In this document: positions 1,119 through 37,219 of the stretch, piece after piece | Position numbering within the stretch: position 1 is the stretch's first letter | Layout: every line of letters begins with the position of its first letter | Assembly: GCA_023259115.1 (NCBI GenBank) | Contig: JAHFQW010000001.1 | Coordinates: 17,929 to 81,928, forward strand | Reading direction: 5' to 3' | From: an archaeon | GTDB taxonomy: Archaea; Nanobdellota; Nanobdellia; Woesearchaeales; GW2011-AR9 | Length of the DNA: 64,000 nt | Program-made: the position numbers and the translations under genes | Notes under the pieces: model-generated | Told to the model about the DNA's origin: nothing | The model's input: the letters and a program-made list of their open reading frames with translations, nothing else | Database searches by the model: none

Positions 1119-1169
1119 GAGAAAAGAGTGTAAAAATCAAATTTTTAAAACGAAAACCTCTATGATACC

Positions 1170-2255
1170 TCACCCTAACCTATCCAAAATATCATGTGCA
1201 TTCATTGCATTCAAATAATCAACAAACTCTCGATTCTCATCACGTAGCAACAACTTCATCCGAAGCCCATCTCGCTCTACATTTGACACTCTCGCCATCT
1301 TATCCACCAAAATCAACCCATAAGGATACCCTAAGAACAACGCATCGCAGCTATTCTGCGCTAAATACCCTAACACCTCACAACAACCTTCAAATCGAAA
1401 AATATGCCGAGATTTAGCATGCAATCGCACAAAATAAATCTGCTCATCAACATGATAACTCCAACACTCCGGCAGCGGACTCAACGCTCGCAGCAACACC
1501 ACCGGATTATTGCCACATGTAGTAAATAAGGAACAACTCTTCGCAAGCGCACACACCTTCTCACCTAAAGCTCTGCGATACTTCTCCTCAGATGGATACT
1601 TCACATCTAACGTTCCATCCAACACCACATAATCAACTCTCATTGCCATACGAGACGCCAACTTCAACTCCCCCAATCGTCGAGCCATATTCGCAACACT
1701 ACTAATAGCTGCCCTCTCCCCTCCACCATTAATTGATGTATCATGAGAACAAATCACTAAATCTTCTTCATCAACCAAACAACCACCTACCTCATCACCA
1801 CAATTATTGATATCACCATTATTAATATCACCATTAGTAATAACACCCTTATTCGCACCCTCCTCCGTAACATTATCACAAGCATTATCCCCATTATTTC
1901 CTCTCTGCATCGGAAAAATCTTGCTCTCATACCAAATATCGCCTCTCTTATACACCGCCGTTGTCAGCACATAAAACTCATGCATCTCGCTACCTATCTT
2001 CGCTGAACCTCGCATCACCTGCCCAAACACCCGAATAAAACTCAAACAGATATTTCCCCCAGATAGAATCTCCGCCTGCCCTCCATCCACATACGCAATT
2101 GTCTTCAAACCCGTCACAGTTAAACTACTAACTTGCCCAATGGGCTCAAACTTCTCCTGCACAATGGGCATAACTTTATTCTTAAACACCAAATCATCTG
2201 TTAAAAAAAAAACTTTCAACTTCTGCCGTAAATGCGCTGAGATTTGTGATAACAT
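1170..2255 (-). CDS. nurA: NurA-like 5'-3' nuclease-domain protein
   Basis: 361 aa. AYVDGGQAEILSGGN (residues 54-68) and YVVLDGTLDVKY (209-220) match the two Asp-containing motifs of NurA, the nuclease that partners HerA/Mre11-Rad50 in archaeal end resection. N-terminal helices and a C-terminal segment with HVDEQIYFVRLHAKS also fit. No HerA gene is in the window. Between the two motifs lies an Asn/Gly/Asp-rich insert (119-158) built from NGDINNGDINN-type repeats, probably a disordered loop from an expanded triplet repeat. ATG at 2255 directly follows TTATTAGGGG; the upstream TATTTATT may be its TATA. Family assignment rests on motifs only. Confidence 0.55.
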   Translation of the reverse strand: MLSQISAHLRQKLKVFFLTDDLVFKNKVMPIVQEKFEPIGQVSSLTVTGLKTIAYVDGGQAEILSGGNICLSFIRVFGQVMRGSAKIGSEMHEFYVLTTAVYKRGDIWYESKIFPMQRGNNGDNACDNVTEEGANKGVITNGDINNGDINNCGDEVGGCLVDEEDLVICSHDTSINGGGERAAISSVANMARRLGELKLASRMAMRVDYVVLDGTLDVKYPSEEKYRRALGEKVCALAKSCSLFTTCGNNPVVLLRALSPLPECWSYHVDEQIYFVRLHAKSRHIFRFEGCCEVLGYLAQNSCDALFLGYPYGLILVDKMARVSNVERDGLRMKLLLRDENREFVDYLNAMNAHDILDRLG

Positions 2256-11334: not shown

Positions 11335-12675
11335 GTGAAAAAAGAGCGTGATGAAAAAACGAAAGTAAAAAGTAAAGAAATACAGACTATAGAAAAAAAA
11401 CTAACACCACCGCATTCAACACTACAAAAAATTCTAAAAAAATTTGGTCCAGGTTTTATAACCGGCGCATCTGATGATGATCCCTCCGGCATTGCCACCT
11501 ACTCTCAAACCGGCGCAAAATTCGGCTACACCCAACTCTGGACCTCACTATTCACTTTTCCATTCATGTCTGCCGTGCAAGAAATGTGTGGTCGTATTGG
11601 TCTTGTAACCGGAAAAGGACTTGCCAGCCTCATAAAACATCACTACTCCAAAAAACTATTATACTTTTGCGTATTTCTCCTCGTATTTGCTAATACTATC
11701 AATATTGGTGCAGATCTAGGCGCTATGGCCTCCTCCGCCCAATTAGTCTTTGGCATCCCCTTCATTTTCTGGCTTCTCTTCATCACCGCAACCACGCTCC
11801 TCCTCGAAGTATTCGTCTCCTATCAAGTGTACGCCAAAATACTCAAATACCTCACCATCTCCCTCTTCTCCTACATCGCTGTCGTATTTATCATCCAGCA
11901 AGACTGGAGCAAAATTATCCTCTCCACATTCATTCCCACATTTATCTGGAGTAAAGACTATCTCTTCAACATTGTCGCTATTCTTGGTACAACCATCTCT
12001 CCGTACTTATATTTCTGGCAAACCAGTGAAGAAGTAGAAGAACTAGTAGAACGCAAAGAACTCAAAACAATGGGCAGCGGTACACCTCATTTTCATCGCC
12101 AAGAAATCAAAGATATGCGCACAGACACCCTCATAGGCATGTTCTTCTCGAATCTCATTATGTTCTTTATCATTGCCGCAACCGCCTCAACTCTTGGAAT
12201 TCATGGAATCACAGAGATTCAAACCGCCAATCAAGCCGCTCAAGCCCTCCAACCCATTGCCGGCAATTTTGCCTACATCTTATTCGCCCTCGGTATCATT
12301 GGCACAGGACTATTAGCCGTCCCCATCCTCGCCGGTTCCGCCTCTTATGCACTCGCTGAAACATTAGGCATGCGCGAAGGATTATATCGAAAATTCAAAC
12401 AAGCCCATGGTTTTTATGGCATAATAACTATCGCCACAATCTTAGGGTTGCTCATCAATTTTACATCCATTCCTCCCTTCAAAGTATTATACTACACCGC
12501 CATTCTCAACGGCATCTGTGCTCCTCCTCTGCTATTTGTTCTCCTCAAAATATCCAACGACAAAAAAATCATGGGAAAATATACCAATAGCAAACTCTCA
12601 AATATATTAGGGTGGTCTATCGCCATAATTATGAGTATTGCCGCCATTGCCCTACTCATCGAGATACTACTTTAA
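11335..12675 (+). CDS. Nramp-family divalent cation transporter with GTG start
   Basis: 446 aa with about 11 membrane segments. GPGFITGASDDDPSGIATYSQTGAKFG corresponds to the broken helix 1; in classical MntH/NRAMP this reads DPGN, here DPSG. The helix-6 region reads TTISPYLYFWQ and lacks the MPH-type methionine that coordinates Mn2+ and Fe2+. Such variants occur in Nramp-related transporters, some of which carry Mg2+; substrate is therefore open. The start is GTG at 11335: AGTTTAAATAAAC lies 26 bases upstream, so the mRNA is probably leaderless with a GTG first codon. A cytoplasmic loop (about residues 230-260) is highly charged. Confidence 0.82.
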   Translation: MKKERDEKTKVKSKEIQTIEKKLTPPHSTLQKILKKFGPGFITGASDDDPSGIATYSQTGAKFGYTQLWTSLFTFPFMSAVQEMCGRIGLVTGKGLASLIKHHYSKKLLYFCVFLLVFANTINIGADLGAMASSAQLVFGIPFIFWLLFITATTLLLEVFVSYQVYAKILKYLTISLFSYIAVVFIIQQDWSKIILSTFIPTFIWSKDYLFNIVAILGTTISPYLYFWQTSEEVEELVERKELKTMGSGTPHFHRQEIKDMRTDTLIGMFFSNLIMFFIIAATASTLGIHGITEIQTANQAAQALQPIAGNFAYILFALGIIGTGLLAVPILAGSASYALAETLGMREGLYRKFKQAHGFYGIITIATILGLLINFTSIPPFKVLYYTAILNGICAPPLLFVLLKISNDKKIMGKYTNSKLSNILGWSIAIIMSIAAIALLIEILL

Positions 12676-12746
12676 AAAAAAGAAAAACAAGTAGAGAAAC
12701 CAAAAGAATAAACCCAAACAAAAGAATAAACCAAAAAACCTCAAAC

Positions 12747-13436
12747 TCATCTCAATCCAAACTTCTTCATCTTTCGCTGCAACGTTTCTCCTCGTAAGCC
12801 CATCTTCATCGCCACCTTCTTCAAATCACCCCTCTTCTCCTCAAGATGATGCACAATAAACTGTTTCTCAAACTCTCGCTCCGCCTCTTTCCAACCTAAC
12901 TGCTCAAAAGCGAGCACTTTGGCGATATTTTTTGAAAGAGCCGGAACTTCACGATACAAATCCTCCATTTTCTGCGGATGAAAAATACGTTTATATTGTT
13001 CAAGTGTTCCTCGAATCGTATCCTCCACCACTTTTTCTTTATATTCTAATTCTCCTTTTACATCCCCTCGAACAATATCCACATCAATCTCAAACTCTTT
13101 AATCGCCCGATGTACCGAACGTCGATCAATTCCCAGTATCTTTGCCAACTGCGATACATTCCCTCGCTTCAACATCAACTCACGTCGTAAAAAATCCTCT
13201 TTGAATTTCTTCTTGGCATCTTTAAACGAAGCGGTTAGTGGAACATATATACTCAGCGATGGTTTTGCCAACTGATCCGTAATATCTGACTCAATTTTTG
13301 GAATCGTAATACCAAAACTCTTCTCCAGCGTCTCCTCCAGCAGAGGCACAACCTTATCTTTAATTGTTGCTTCCAAATCTTTCTTATCTGACTCTTCTTT
13401 CTTCCAAAATAATTTTTTTGATTTTTGATCCATCAT
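12747..13436 (-). CDS. Transcription regulator with two Fis-type helix-turn-helix domains
   Basis: About 229 aa from the ATG at 13436 (or 13433). Two HTH units are visible: ELMLKRGNVSQLAKILGIDR followed by RSVHRAIKEF (about residues 105-135), and HHLEEKRGDLKKVAMKMGLR followed by GETLQRKMKKFGLR at the C-terminus. Each has the GN/DxxxxAxxxGxxRxxxxRxxKxF pattern of the Fis/NtrC DNA-binding module. A duplicated Fis unit without AAA+ domain is typical of archaea. Upstream residues in the same frame are rejected because they overlap the preceding gene and are Cys-rich nonsense; TTTAAG about 28 bases before the ATG may be its TATA. Confidence 0.68.
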   Translation of the reverse strand: MMDQKSKKLFWKKEESDKKDLEATIKDKVVPLLEETLEKSFGITIPKIESDITDQLAKPSLSIYVPLTASFKDAKKKFKEDFLRRELMLKRGNVSQLAKILGIDRRSVHRAIKEFEIDVDIVRGDVKGELEYKEKVVEDTIRGTLEQYKRIFHPQKMEDLYREVPALSKNIAKVLAFEQLGWKEAEREFEKQFIVHHLEEKRGDLKKVAMKMGLRGETLQRKMKKFGLR

Positions 13437-26807: not shown

Positions 26808-28727
26808 TCAAACCTCCTTCTTCAACTCCATCAAATAATCTCGCAGCTCCATCGCCGCTTCAAAATCAAGCTTCTCCGCCGCTGCGCGCATCTGCGCCTC
26901 AACTTCAATCATCTTTTTGTGCAAATCAGATTTAGCTAGATGTTTTACTCCTTTTACCGAACGTTTTTGAGTTGTAATATGTTTAATAATGGTTTGTGGA
27001 ACAATGTTATGCATTTTATTAAACACGATTTGCTCTTCTCTTCTCTGTTGCGTAATTGAAATAGCACGACGCATAGAATCAGTAATTTTATTCGCATACA
27101 TAATCACGTGACCCGATTCATTACGTGCCGCTCGTCCAATCGTTTGAATTAAACTACGCTCATCTCGTAAAAATCCTTCTTTATCCGCATCTAAAATAGC
27201 AACTAATTGCACTTCTGGCACATCTAACCCCTCACGCAATAAATTGATCCCCACCAACACATCATACTCCCCCGCTCGTAACGCCCGCAACAATTCAATC
27301 CTATCTAAACTCTCAACCTCCGCATGCATATATCTAACACGTACATCTTTTCCCGCTAAATACTCCGTCAAATCCTCTGCCATCTTCTTGGTAAGTGTTG
27401 TCACAAATACGCGTCCACCCAAAGAAACCGTTGCAGCAATCTCAACGAGCAAATCTGTAATCTGCCCCGTAATTGGCCGCACAACAATTTGAGGATCAAG
27501 TAAGCCTGTCGGACGAATAACTAAATTAACCACCTGCCCACTTCGCTCCAGTTCATACAACGCCGGTGTTGCCGACACAAATATCACATGCTTCAAATAC
27601 TTCTCAAACTCTGAAAACATCAAAGGCCGATTGTCATACGCACAAGGCAGCCTAAACCCATACTCCACCAAATTCTTCTTACGTGAATAATCCCCTTTGT
27701 ACATCCCCTGCGCCTGCGGAATCGTTCGATGACTCTCATCAATAATCATCAAAAAATCTTTTGGAAAATAATCTAACAAACAAAACGGCGCACTCCCCGG
27801 CTCTCGACCATCCAAATGCCGAGAATAATTCTCAATCCCCGTACAATATCCCACTTCTTTAATCATCTCCAAATCATACGTCACCCGTTTACGTAACCGT
27901 TCTTGTTCCAGCAGTCCCAGTGTTGGTGCATAATCCTCCAACTCCGCAAGTATTGCCTCTGTTGCCTCTTTCATCTTCTTCTCTGGTGCAACAAACTGCT
28001 TGGCAGGAAAAATCTTAATCCCATCAAGAACCGTAATCACCTCAAGCGTCACGGCATGCAGTTCTGAAATCATCTCAACCTCATCACCACATAATTCGAT
28101 ACGAATAATCGTTTTATCATATGCCAAAAACACATCAATAACATCTCCTCGAACCCGAAACCTTCCCTGCTCAAGCACCTCATCATTGCGCACATACTGC
28201 ATCGCAATCAAATGCTCAATGATACGCTGCCGTGAAAAATTTTCCCTCAGCGCAATCCGCAGCGACATCTCTGTAAAATCAAACGGATTCCCCGCACCAT
28301 AAATGCACGAAATAGATGCCACCACAATCACATCATCACGTGACAACAATGCCGCCATCGTCTTGAGACGCATCTTCTCAATCTCCTCATTCACCGTAGA
28401 CTCTTTTTCAATATACGTATCAGACGTAGGGATATAACTCTCTGGTTGATAATAATCAAAATAAGAAATAAAATACTCCACCCGATTCTCTGGAAAAAAC
28501 TCCCTAAATTCCGTATACAACTGCGCCGCCAGCGTCTTATTATGTGCAAGTACCAGTGTTGGCATCTGTACTGCCGCAATCACATTCGCCATCACAAACG
28601 TCTTCCCACTTCCCGTTATACCCAGCAACGTCTGGCTCGCATACTTCTTATATCCCACAACCAGTTTTCTAATAGCTTCAGGCTGTCCACCTGCTGGTTT
28701 CATGGTAGTTGATAATGTAAATGCCAT
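26808..28727 (-). CDS. uvrB: Excision nuclease subunit UvrB
   Basis: 639 aa, close to full length. LLGITGSGKTFVMANVIAAV (Walker A), the beta-hairpin region YFDYYQPESYIPTSDTYIEKE, DFLMIIDESHRTIPQ (DESH box), VIFVSATPALYELE, VGINLLREGLDVPEV and QTIGRAARN cover the helicase motifs; the C-terminal UVR motif (KKMIEVEAQMRAAAEKLDF) binds UvrC. It verifies DNA damage and loads UvrC. UvrABC in archaea is a transfer from bacteria. It shares orientation with uvrC and uvrA but has its own upstream region. Confidence 0.97.
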   Translation of the reverse strand: MAFTLSTTMKPAGGQPEAIRKLVVGYKKYASQTLLGITGSGKTFVMANVIAAVQMPTLVLAHNKTLAAQLYTEFREFFPENRVEYFISYFDYYQPESYIPTSDTYIEKESTVNEEIEKMRLKTMAALLSRDDVIVVASISCIYGAGNPFDFTEMSLRIALRENFSRQRIIEHLIAMQYVRNDEVLEQGRFRVRGDVIDVFLAYDKTIIRIELCGDEVEMISELHAVTLEVITVLDGIKIFPAKQFVAPEKKMKEATEAILAELEDYAPTLGLLEQERLRKRVTYDLEMIKEVGYCTGIENYSRHLDGREPGSAPFCLLDYFPKDFLMIIDESHRTIPQAQGMYKGDYSRKKNLVEYGFRLPCAYDNRPLMFSEFEKYLKHVIFVSATPALYELERSGQVVNLVIRPTGLLDPQIVVRPITGQITDLLVEIAATVSLGGRVFVTTLTKKMAEDLTEYLAGKDVRVRYMHAEVESLDRIELLRALRAGEYDVLVGINLLREGLDVPEVQLVAILDADKEGFLRDERSLIQTIGRAARNESGHVIMYANKITDSMRRAISITQQRREEQIVFNKMHNIVPQTIIKHITTQKRSVKGVKHLAKSDLHKKMIEVEAQMRAAAEKLDFEAAMELRDYLMELKKEV

Positions 28728-29731: not shown

Positions 29732-31285
29732 TCACTTCACAAACTCCATCTCCCTCTTTTTCCTATTATACGATAACACAAAACGATGCACACTATCCCG
29801 AACTTGTCGAATAAATAACATCATCGGACTTGCCGCATCAAAGCGTAAAGCCTCAGATGACCCAGGAATATAAATCTCCTCCTCTTGCTTTGCCAATCCA
29901 ATAATAGGAATATGTAACCCAACACTTTGCAACGCCTCAAGCGCCGCACCCAATTGTCCCAATCCCCCATCAATAATAATCAAATCAGGCATCTTCAACC
30001 CCTCATCACGCAATCTCAAATATCTTCTTAAAACAACCTCTTTCATCGATGCAAAATCATCCTGCCTCGAAACAGAACGCACCTCAAAGCGCCGATACTC
30101 TTTTGTATTAGGCATTCCACAAAGCCACTGTGTCATCCCCCCTACAATAAATTGATCACCTAAATTCGAGATATCAAAACATTCAATCACATAAGGTATA
30201 CTTGGTAAATAAAGCTTTTCCTGCATTGTCTTAAGCACCACACTCTCAAGCGCAAGCAAAGCATTTTTCTCTGCAAGTAACACCAAATCATGCTTCTCAC
30301 CACGAAGAGGAAACGTCAACCTAACCACCCTAGTAGAAAACCGTGCCAAATACGCCTCCACAACCTCTCTCTGCTCACCTAAATCCTCATTTACAATGAT
30401 TTCCTGCGGCACATAATTTTGTGAATAATACAATGTCAAAAAACTCACAAAAACATCTGGAACATAATCAAAACGAAACTCTTTCTTTCCCGAAATAACT
30501 CCCCGAGAGATAGAGAACAACACAACCACTGCTAAAGAATCATCATGACGCATCACCACCACATCCTGATCAAACTGCTTGAGTAAATCCACTTTTTGTT
30601 TCTCATCTAAATGATCAATCGCCTCAATATTTCTCTTTATCTCCAGTGCCGCTTCATAACGCATCCCCTGTGATGCCTCTTTCATCTCTTCATTCAACCG
30701 TCCAACCACCTCTTTTGTATCGCCTTTCAAAAACAAGATTGCCTCACGAACCTGTTGGGCATATCCCTCTTTATTAACCGCCCCAATACAAGGAGCCGTA
30801 CACAACCCAATATGATAATTCAAACATGCTCGTTTTGGCATTGTTCGACACACCCTCAACTTAAACAACCGCACCGCCAGATCCAGCACCCTCTTGCGTG
30901 AATATCCATCCGTATACGGTCCAAATAACTTCACCCCTCGCTCCACGCTGCGCGTAGAAAAAATCCGTGGAAACTCCTCCAAACTCAGCCCAATATACGC
31001 ATACGTCTTGCCATCTTTCAAATCAATATTATATTTAGGTTTGTGCTGCTTAATCAATCTATTCTCCAATAGCAGCGCCTCTACCTCAGAATCAACCACA
31101 ATAAAATCCATATCCGCAATATGAGAGACCAAAACCTGTGTCTTTGCATTCTTCTCAGACGCATTAAAATAAGAACCAACCCTGCTCTTAAGACTCTTCG
31201 CCTTGCCAATATAAATAATCTTCCCCTCTTTATCTTTAAAGAGATAGACCCCAGGCTGTTGCGGAAGAGAGGATACAGTAATCAT
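29732..31285 (-). CDS. uvrC: Excision nuclease subunit UvrC, lacking the C-terminal HhH domain
   Basis: 517 aa, about 80-100 shorter than typical UvrC. Present are the GIY-YIG nuclease (QPGVYLFKDKEGKIIYIGKAKSL), the Cys-rich linker (CRTMPKRACLNYHIGLCTAPC), a UVR motif near residue 200 and the RNase H-like 5' nuclease (IECFDISNLGDQFIVGGM, DLIIIDGGLGQL, DSVHRFVLSYNRKKR). The protein ends shortly after the last motif, where other UvrC proteins continue with two helix-hairpin-helix motifs that bind DNA. The end is a clean stop, not a window artefact. The double incision may thus depend on another DNA-binding partner. Confidence 0.95.
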   Translation of the reverse strand: MITVSSLPQQPGVYLFKDKEGKIIYIGKAKSLKSRVGSYFNASEKNAKTQVLVSHIADMDFIVVDSEVEALLLENRLIKQHKPKYNIDLKDGKTYAYIGLSLEEFPRIFSTRSVERGVKLFGPYTDGYSRKRVLDLAVRLFKLRVCRTMPKRACLNYHIGLCTAPCIGAVNKEGYAQQVREAILFLKGDTKEVVGRLNEEMKEASQGMRYEAALEIKRNIEAIDHLDEKQKVDLLKQFDQDVVVMRHDDSLAVVVLFSISRGVISGKKEFRFDYVPDVFVSFLTLYYSQNYVPQEIIVNEDLGEQREVVEAYLARFSTRVVRLTFPLRGEKHDLVLLAEKNALLALESVVLKTMQEKLYLPSIPYVIECFDISNLGDQFIVGGMTQWLCGMPNTKEYRRFEVRSVSRQDDFASMKEVVLRRYLRLRDEGLKMPDLIIIDGGLGQLGAALEALQSVGLHIPIIGLAKQEEEIYIPGSSEALRFDAASPMMLFIRQVRDSVHRFVLSYNRKKREMEFVK

Positions 31286-31445: not shown

Positions 31446-31486
31446 CCACTGGTCACACTGGTCAAGTGCGGAAAAGATATTTAAAT
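31446..31486 (+). promoter_or_regulatory. Double-box operator and TATA upstream of the RhuM remnant
   Basis: Bases 31446-31468 contain two copies of ACTGGTCA separated by one base (first part CCACTGGTCACACTGG), followed after 8 bases by the TATA box ATATTTAAAT (31477-31486). The same arrangement, with ACTGGACA boxes, precedes uvrA (37219-37178 on the minus strand); 20 of 23 bases agree. A shared activator or repressor site is inferred. Confidence 0.55.
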
Positions 31487-31507: not shown

Positions 31508-31771
31508 ATGACCAAAGACCTCACCATGAGAAACAGCACCGCTGAATTCTTAATATTTACCGCTCAGTCACAAGAAGAATCAATTGAAGTAAAGTACGCT
31601 GATGAAACAGTCTGGCTTACTCAAGCTATGATTGCCAAGCTTTTTGATAAAGGAAGAAGTACAATAACGCAACATTTAAATGAAATATTTAAATCTGGAG
31701 AATTGGATGAAAATTCAGCATGTCGGGATTTCCGACATACTGCTTCTGATGGACAGAAATATATAACCTAA
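31508..31771 (+). pseudogene. RhuM-family protein, N-terminal fragment
   Basis: 88 codons from ATG 31508: STAEFLIFTAQSQEESIEVK, DETVWLTQAMIAKLFDKGRS, then TITQHLNEIFKSGELDE. This is the start of RhuM-like proteins (virulence RhuM / Fic-associated), which are normally over 300 aa and continue DGKxYxTxFYNLDAIIAVGYR. Here the frame stops at KYIT-TAA and the rest is missing, so it is a truncated remnant or a minimal DNA-binding version. The ATG is 26 bases from the TATA centre (leaderless). The intergenic 31772-31835 shows no further RhuM sequence. Confidence 0.7.
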
Positions 31772-34307: not shown

Positions 34308-37157
34308 TCACTTCTCAAGCACCCCCCTCAAAAACATCCCGGTATAAGAAGCTTTAACCTTTACAATCTCCTCTGGTGTTCCCTGCGCAATAATCTCTCC
34401 CCCGCCAACTCCTCCCTCTGGACCCATATCAATCACATAATCACACGATTTGATCACATCTAAATTATGTTCAATCACATAAATTGTATTGCCTTTTTCC
34501 ACCAGCCGATTCAACACCATAATTAACTTGCGTACATCCTCAAAATGCAATCCCGTCGTTGGCTCATCTAATAAATAAATTGTATTCCCCCGCTTCACTT
34601 TCGCAAGTTCTCGCGTCAATTTAATTCGTTGCGATTCCCCTCCCGATAACGTCGTTGCACTCTGGCCCAATTTAATATACCCTAGCCCCACGTCAAAGAG
34701 CGTCTGTAACTTACGCATAATCGAACTATGATTCTTAAAATACGGCAACGCCTCCTCAACACTCATATTTAGCACATCCGCAATATTCCTCTCACTATAC
34801 AAAATCTCCAATGTATCTTTATTATATCTCTTGCCGCGGCAATCCTCACACTCCACATACACATCAGGTAAAAAATTCATCTCAATCTTAATCACACCAT
34901 CTCCAAAACACGTCTCACATCTCCCACCCTGCACATTAAACGAAAACCGCCCGGCAGTATATCCTCGCGCCCTCGCTTGCTTGGTTGATGCAAATAACTC
35001 TCGCACCTCATCAAAAATTTTGGTATACGTCGCCGGATTTGATCGCGGCGTTTTCCCAATCGGATCTTGATCAATCACAATCGTATCTTTAATCTCAGCT
35101 GGAACTTCCAACCTAGAATGCACCCCAATCTTGCCAACCTGCATCTCAAATTTCTTCTGCAAAGCAGGGATAAATGTCTGAGTCATAAGCGTTGATTTAC
35201 CCGAACCACTCACACCCGTAATACCACACAACACCCCAACAGGCAAACGCAGTGTCACATGTTTCAAATTATTCTCATACGCATCATGTAACACTATAAA
35301 TTTCTGAGGCGTTCGTCGAATAGAAGGCATAGCTACTGACTTTTTGCCAGATAAATACTCTCCCGTCAAACTCTGTGTATGTTGCATAATCTGCGATGGT
35401 GTACCTTGCGCGCAAATATACCCACCATGAATCCCCGCTCCCGGCCCAATATCCACAATATGATCCGCCGCCATCATCGTATCCTCATCATGCTCAACCA
35501 CAAGTAACGTATTTCCTAAATCACGTAATCGTTGCAATGTACTAATTAACTTCGCATTGTCACGTTGATGTAACCCAATCGATGGCTCATCCAGAACATA
35601 TAACACCCCCATCAAATTCGCCCCAATCTGTGTTGCCAGTCTAATACGCTGCGCCTCTCCTCCTGAGAGTGTGCGCGCCGTTCGCGACAAATTCAAATAC
35701 CCCAATCCCACATTTTTCAAAAATCCCAACCGATCACAAATCTCTTTAAGCACCTGTCGAGCAATAAACATCTCTTTGGTGCTCAAACTCTTCCCCAACT
35801 GTTCAAAAAACGCAACCGAACTATCAATACTCATATCCGTCACATCAATAATAGACTTCCCCAGAATCTTCACAGACAACATCTTCTCTTTTAAACGCTT
35901 ACCTTCACACGTCTGACACACACGAGAATCCATCAACCCCTCAAACTTCTCTTTTCGAGAATCTGATTCCGTATCTTTATACAACCGCATCGTTTGTGGA
36001 ATAACCCCCTCCCACCCCTGCTCCATATTCATCGATGCACCATTGCTCCACGTACCTCTCATTTTCTTCTGCGTACCATATAATAGCACCTGCAGCTGCT
36101 TCGCACTCAACTCTTTAATCGGTGTAAATAAATCAAACCCATACTCTTTGGCAACAACCCCCATCTGTTGTGCTCGCCACTTCAAATCAAGACGTCCATA
36201 CACCACTAATGCCCCATCAATAATCGACTTATTTTTGTCAGGAATCAATAAATCAGGAGAAATCTCCCTATGCTCACCTAAACCCAAACACGTCGGACAC
36301 GCTCCGAACGGTGAATTAAATGAAAACATTCTTGGTTCCAGTTGTTCAAACACAAATTCTGGATGAGTGGGACAAGCACCAAAAGTGGAATAAAGCGTCT
36401 CACCTGCTCCTCTGCCAATTTCTTTGCCATCGGTTTTAATTTCAGGATCTAAAATAATAATCGTCCCATTACTCTTATGTAAACCCTGCTCAACTGCGTC
36501 TGATAAACGTAACCTATTCTCATCATTAATTATAATCCGATCAATCACCGCCTCAATCCAATGCTTCTCATAACGCTCAAGCTTCACATTCAACCCCTCT
36601 ACACGATGTATCGCCCCATCCACTCGAACCCGCGTAAATCCTGCTTTTTTCGCCTCCTCAAAAATCTTCTCATGCGTCCCCTTCATCCCTCGAATGAGAG
36701 GTGCAAGCACCACTATCTCCTCACCGCTCTGCGCCATTAAAAGTGAGACAATATTCTCAGCCGATTGCGGCTGCAACGTACTCTGACACAACACACAATG
36801 AATCACCCCAATTCGCGCAAACAACAACCGCAAATAATCATAAATCTCTGTAACTGTACCAACGGTAGAACGTGGATTTTTCGATGTCGTCTTCTGCTCA
36901 ATAGAAATCGCGGGAGATAACCCCTCAATCGAATCAATATCTGGCTTGTTCATAATACCCAAAAACTGGCGCGCATACGCAGAAAGCGATTCAACATACC
37001 GCCGCTGCCCTTCCGCATAAATCGTATCAAACGCCAGCGTAGATTTACCTGAGCCAGATAAACCTGTTATCACAATCAGCTTATTTCGCGGCAATTCCAA
37101 AGAAATATTCTTCAAATTATGTTCTCGAGCTCCCCGCACAATTATTTTATCTAACAT
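34308..37157 (-). CDS. uvrA: Excision nuclease ATPase UvrA
   Basis: 949 aa, full length. Two ABC ATPase halves: GLSGSGKST (residues 33-41) with [13 protein letters not shown], and [10 protein letters not shown] with [12 protein letters not shown] and [15 protein letters not shown]. Zn modules are present: CVLCQ and CPTHP...CPTC in the first half and RCETCFGDG...CEDC in the second. UvrA finds lesions and loads UvrB. The ATG at 37157 lies 26 bases after CATTTATAAATG, so the mRNA is leaderless. A 23-bp double-box motif shared with the RhuM-remnant promoter lies 7 bases upstream of that TATA box, suggesting regulation. Confidence 0.98.
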
Positions 37158-37177: not shown

Positions 37178-37219
37178 CATTTATAAATGTTATTACCACC
37201 TGTCCAGTGTGTCCAGTGG
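37178..37219 (-). promoter_or_regulatory. uvrA promoter with double-box operator
   Basis: On the minus strand, two ACTGGACA boxes one base apart (37219-37197; starts CCACTGGACACACTGG) are followed after 7 bases by the TATA box CATTTATAAATG (37189-37178), then the uvrA ATG 26 bases from the box centre. The double box matches the one at 31446-31468 at 20 of 23 positions. It lies directly upstream of the TATA/BRE, where an archaeal activator would touch TBP/TFB. Confidence 0.58.

Follow-up and report, generated by a model that had tools for sequence, protein, structure and literature searches.

Bacterial SOS regulons operate by LexA-type derepression. Bacteria also possess WYL-domain damage activators, namely PafBC and DriD (PMC11804915, PMC12340889). 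For archaea, the literature searched yielded one DNA-damage regulon whose master regulator has a name, that of the Sulfolobales. In Sulfolobus, this regulator is Orc1-2, a non-initiator Orc1 protein with ANTTTC as its binding sequence, at its own promoter as well (PMC9738581). The Sulfolobus damage element is located at -44 to -39, upstream of BRE/TATA, as are other archaeal activator sites (PMC5817253). Orc1/Cdc6 proteins also bind the ORB, of which the archaeal consensus is TCCA[CG]T[TG]GAAA[TC][GA]AAGGGGT (PMC4164010). For DPANN archaea, which are nearly all uncultivated, and for Woesearchaeota, no damage regulon was found in the literature.

A 64-kb stretch of a Woesearchaeota-type genome, analysed here at its full length and called the window, carries a double box at two promoters. 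On balance, this double box is probably the operator of an order-wide DNA-repair/damage regulon of Woesearchaeota-type archaea, read by Orc1-S, a short Orc1/Cdc6 paralog, as its likely activator. By analogy, the Woesearchaeota system resembles the Orc1-2 response of S. islandicus and S. acidocaldarius, with a different site and different genes. In both systems, a non-initiator Orc1/Cdc6 paralog (here a predicted one) exists alongside an initiator paralog, and the element is non-palindromic and fixed in position upstream of BRE/TATA. In the Sulfolobales, the element also stands at the gene of the regulator; here, the gene of the candidate regulator has it in some lineages and not in most loci. 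In contrast to ANTTTC of the Sulfolobales, the element is CACTGGWCA and often tandem. The targets are the radA operon, BRO-N/DinD genes, Hef, recombinases and, in the window genome, uvrA, whereas those of the Sulfolobales are Ups pili and tfb3; moreover, the present system belongs to a DPANN lineage. Similar to the LexA/SOS system, recombinase, UvrA and DinD-type genes stand under one operator, but here the site has no palindrome, the promoter is of the archaeal TATA type and the site lies upstream of the core promoter. With PafBC and DriD, the system would share an activator-type, LexA-independent damage response, although those belong to another protein family and act at bacterial promoters. 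The box also shares the core CCACT[GT]G with the ORB, an element bound by Orc1/Cdc6 proteins, and in some genomes box arrays are found close to an orc1 gene. However, the box has neither the GAAA nor the G-string of the ORB consensus, is located at promoters, and genuine ORBs are found at the other paralog.

The features of the window are compiled in Table 1. Both double boxes fit ACTGGWCA-N-ACTGGWCA with 0 mismatches and span 60 to 44 bases ahead of the ATG. The original prediction of two ACTGG(A/T)CA boxes one base apart at uvrA and at the island, sharing 20 of 23 bases over the two 23-bp sites, is thus borne out, as is the equal TATA-to-ATG spacing (22 nt between TATA end and ATG at both). 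The box-to-TATA distances of 7 and 8 bases given there were wrong, the distance being 13 bp at both promoters. A promoter-type scan of the window yields only two clear sites, at uvrA and at the island, in agreement with the predicted lack of the site at uvrB and uvrC. The transcripts starting from the two box promoters are probably leaderless. Within the island, the truncated RhuM-like ORF alone has no match in Pfam or NCBIfam, and in BLAST clustering it groups with one other box-linked first ORF. The 282-aa BRO-N protein matches DinD (PRK11525) with an E-value of 1.5e-5 and 24.5 bits, under the cut-off of 242, and its family recurs under the box in many genomes. Judging from gene order and strand, the DUF2779/Cas4-like gene probably shares a transcript with the BRO-N island.

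Table 1. Box promoters and neighbouring genes in the 64-kb window
Feature	Position	Strand	Basis
Double box ACTGGACACACTGGACA, uvrA promoter	37201..37217	-	PWM score 28.7
uvrA TATA box TTTATAAA, 13 bp past box	37180..37187	-	sequence
uvrA, 949 aa, regulon member	34308..37157	-	Pfam UvrA_inter, UvrA_DNA-bind, ABC_tran
Double box ACTGGTCACACTGGTCA, front of BRO-N/DinD island	31448..31464	+	PWM score 34.8
Island TATA box TATTTAAA, 13 bp past box	31478..31485	+	sequence
Truncated RhuM-like ORF, 87 aa, first gene past box	31508..31771	+	
BRO-N/DinD-like protein, 282 aa	31836..32684	+	Pfam Bro-N 35.7 bits, cut-off 25.6
DUF2779/Cas4-like nuclease-type protein, 486 aa	32826..34286	+	Pfam
uvrC, box promoter absent	29732..31285	-	Pfam + scan
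uvrB, box promoter absent	26808..28727	-	Pfam + scan

The regulon of the window genome was defined by pattern searches. The 1.57-Mb genome contains seven exact double boxes and one copy with a single mismatch, and all eight lie 13-15 bp ahead of a TATA box. Most of these sites share the frame CC-ACTGGACACACTGGACA-N13-TTTATATA, while their flanks are unrelated outside the box, spacer and TATA. A box with TATA at the right distance was found at 11 places in the genome and at 0 for the reversed-pattern control. The copies are therefore not due to chance, as all eight precede a TATA box and the control yields none. They are placed ahead of uvrA, the radA operon (a small ORF followed by RadA), RadC, two BRO-N/DinD genes (one of them a BRO-N fragment gene), an RNase H-like exonuclease and the gene of a 42-aa protein next to a YrdC-like gene; a tyrosine recombinase gene lies ~350 nt downstream of its box. 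Additional single boxes ahead of TATA-like sequence are present in the same genome (G000:C53:112817 and 112892; G000:C15:45470; G000:C22:2875), some of them ~75 bp from another box.

The search was extended to 352 genomes of the order (Woesearchaeota), mostly metagenome bins in which absences are error-prone. Doubles with a 9-bp period (up to 1 mismatch) occur in 93 of the 352 genomes; for these, as for the copies in the window genome, the reversed-pattern control is weak because ACTGGTCA is nearly the same read backwards. Better controls are box plus TATA, 7-bp doubles, orientation at radA and mirror-side TATA counts. Doubles with a 7-bp period were detected in 184/352 genomes, up to 21 in each, and their reversed control gave almost none. 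When 100 sites were aligned on the box without gaps, TATA fell into one register and an extra leading C was kept in 98%, so the unit is CACTGGWCA, single or doubled upstream with a period of 7 or 9 bp. Single-box promoters retain the TATA-proximal box. Rather than being scattered without relation to promoters, the motif is followed by TATA-like hexamers that begin 13, 15 or 17 bp past the box and almost nowhere else: they stand at these offsets in 110 of 135 double-box sites, collected without requiring TATA, vs 9 of 135 on the mirror side. Unlike a palindromic operator of the LexA type, which overlaps the core promoter, the box forms a direct repeat and ends 13 bp ahead of TATA; its place is upstream of both BRE and TATA in fixed helical phasing, and it overlaps neither. 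Upstream of radA, 92 of 112 genomes have the exact box in forward orientation and 9 have it reversed; most of the remaining radA promoters hold closely related forms, e.g. CACTAGACA or CACTTGCCA. Two loci (L133 and L138) also carry inverted pairs CACTGGACA...TGTCCAGTG ~620-690 nt upstream of radA, near the promoter box. One contig labelled Candidatus Nomurabacteria (L042, MFTJ01000026.1), probably a mis-binned archaeal contig, has the archaeal box promoter together with genes for YhcG nuclease and tyrosine recombinase.

The analysis demonstrates a regulon, with its fixed promoter geometry and its gene content. Among 183 promoter-type sites, chosen by pattern and not by gene, the radA operon is represented 29 times, BRO-N/DinD genes 24, the small-protein/YrdC operon 12, tyrosine recombinases 11, LAGLIDADG genes 10 and Hef helicase 9. 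HTH118 follows at five sites, RhuM/ORF6N at four, a radical-SAM putative DNA repair protein (rSAM-UDG-linked) at three, RadC, YhcG, Orc1 and RNase H-like exonuclease at two each, and PolB and UvrA at one each, with 71 sites lacking an assigned family. Non-repair genes are also among the targets, including the YrdC-like gene and, in one genome, the thermosome. In its composition, the set matches a DNA-damage regulon, and it suggests induction by damage. The proposal of a DNA-damage operator, initially made from two promoters, thereby gains support from the whole genome and 352 related ones, in which the RadA recombinase operon is the most frequent member. UvrA was found under the box in the window genome only, which makes local recruitment of uvrA probable.

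Several small proteins are encoded under box promoters. Throughout the order, the radA operon also encodes, ahead of RadA, a conserved protein of ~100 aa (e.g. L001:1618-1962, G000:C4) that has no Pfam or NCBIfam match. Its predicted structure (pLDDT 86) comprises four strands and one helix; no PDB match was significant, and Pur-alpha and SSB appeared among the weak ones only. It is possible that the protein is a ssDNA-binding partner of RadA. A conserved ~42-aa protein (MIDLTNRTIKRLFEKQ...SGGWIR) is also found under box promoters (L006, L039, L056, L069, L075, L082); its gene often adjoins a YrdC-like gene and lies near orc1-S in other genomes. Two further box-driven small-protein families are represented by L071/L079/L083 and L058/L081/L090. 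The ~42-aa protein and these two families may be small regulators induced by damage.

A short and a long Orc1/Cdc6 paralog were present in all seven genomes examined closely. A curated profile assigns the short paralog, Orc1-S, to the Orc1/Cdc6 proteins (TIGR02928, 187.1 bits, cut-off 181.3; Cdc6_lid); its winged helix is shortened and strongly diverged from that of the long paralog. In 7/7 genomes, the locus of the long paralog has at least two canonical ORBs, mostly inverted, and no box, whereas shuffled loci hold a mean of 0.1 ORBs and two were reached in 0 of 100 shuffles. The inverted ORB pairs TTCCATnnGAAATnAAGGGGT lie beside the long orc1 paralog in L396-L402; in the window genome, this gene is at G000:C50 near 12369-13352 and the ORBs are at L397:673 and 1384. 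The long paralog is thus likely the initiator and its locus likely the origin, as canonical ORBs are located there, and Orc1-S appears to be a non-initiator, since ORB pairs occur only at the long paralog. The idea of the box as an ordinary origin ORB was rejected, because genuine ORBs adjoin the long paralog and box loci have no ORB pairs.

Orc1-S is the most likely binder of the box, judging from sequence comparisons. Of 48 orc1-S loci, 29 have a box no farther than about 1.5 kb away (18/29 and 11/19 in two sets); the own promoter of orc1-S contains one in a minority of loci, about 7 of 29. Arrays of four boxes occur upstream of orc1-S in two loci (L361 and L368), and single or double boxes elsewhere; ~40% of orc1-S loci have no nearby box, including that of the window genome (L394), where orc1-S is located at contig C53:65517-66584. 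In family f78, the order-wide Orc1 search, in which the five best candidates per genome were scored, gave no Orc1-S match, no box lies upstream of radA in 5/5 genomes and doubles do not exceed noise, this joint loss of Orc1-S and box counting as one evolutionary event. Some box-bearing genomes (G001, G064, G252, G314, G316) also gave no Orc1-S match, these being incomplete bins whose absences are uncertain either way. The winged-helix Gln (TFQRK) is kept in 47 of 50 Orc1-S proteins and is replaced by Ala and Tyr in two fetched genomes with a CACTTGCCA-type radA box, on which two genomes the argument from the Gln change rests; one of them has the same variant box beside orc1-S. In another Orc1-S protein (L386), Trp occupies this position.

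Other readings of the same data were weighed. There is next to no probability that the pattern arose by chance or that a mobile element dispersed it as a repeat unit: several targets are indeed mobile or defence genes, but sequence beyond the box, spacer and TATA is unrelated and the radA operon, a core gene, retains its box through most of the order. This explanation is refuted by the conserved position within unrelated flanks. Viral spread was rejected after a viral contig collection had been scanned for the double box with TATA, with one match only. This match (L358, IMGVR_UViG_3300035698_012682, 1142-1180, minus strand) has a double box at the right TATA distance, and a virus of these archaea may sense the host damage signal. 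It is rather doubtful, although possible, that the same regulon is read by a small transcription factor, e.g. of ribbon-helix-helix or winged-helix type, on tandem 7-bp units, with Orc1-S merely a frequent target or neighbour. Ribbon-helix-helix repressors use heptad operators, which the contiguous 7-bp tandem units resemble, and the orc1-S loci not beside a box would fit such a factor. However, no other factor was found to track the box, and the co-loss and the winged-helix change favour Orc1-S. It is highly improbable that the binder is HTH118, a ~155-aa winged-HTH-like protein without a Pfam or NCBIfam family, which has the box in its own promoter in many lineages, as in autoregulation. HTH118 is nearly universal, being single copy in 293 of 352 genomes (L328-L357; alignment A1), and an own-promoter box (score above 13) was found in 18 of 30 loci examined, from several families. 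In spite of this, it has no match at E<=1 in G021, G016, G034 and G163, all of which keep the box regulon, and it is present in f78, which has no box; HTH118 was accordingly rejected as universal regulator.

The remaining alternatives concern the signal and the sign of regulation. That the regulon tracks replication or cell-cycle state instead of damage, with Orc1-S coupling initiation to the expression of recombination genes, seems distinctly unlikely. Boxes do cluster by an orc1/cdc6 gene and the adjoining small-protein/YrdC operon, but the origin boxes are at the other, long paralog, BRO-N/DinD, UvrA, RadC, Hef and recombinases belong to the damage-type genes, and no other replication-fork gene was found repeatedly among the targets. 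It is also unlikely, though less so, that the box is a repressor operator for LexA-like derepression instead of an activator site. The mode of action of bacterial SOS regulons speaks for a repressor, whereas the non-overlapping, helically phased placement upstream of BRE and TATA speaks against it, as this position is occupied by the Sulfolobus damage element and other archaeal activator sites (PMC5817253). Activation by TBP/TFB recruitment is favoured because the box lies upstream of BRE/TATA, like that damage element. That the site activates instead of represses, and that damage is the trigger, are both inferred.

In the proposed mechanism, Orc1-S as the short, non-initiator Orc1/Cdc6 paralog would bind the box 13 bp ahead of TATA and help TBP/TFB onto a weak core promoter. 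On damage, it would turn on radA together with the small gene that partners it, as well as BRO-N/DinD, Hef and further repair genes. Orc1-S would additionally turn on its own gene in some lineages and, in the window genome, uvrA and the DinD island.

The result offers a defined operator, a predicted regulon spanning the whole order, and testable small proteins of unassigned function; for the candidate regulator, it makes a prediction at residue level (winged-helix Gln vs box type). More broadly, we see about an even chance that archaea without a LexA-type system run an SOS-like response by a spare initiator. In this reading, a promoter box would be recognised by the re-specialised winged helix of a non-initiator Orc1/Cdc6 paralog, which would switch on RadA and other repair genes, in DPANN as in Sulfolobales, with different sites and targets. 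If true, the link between replication initiator and damage control would extend to a second, distant archaeal branch.
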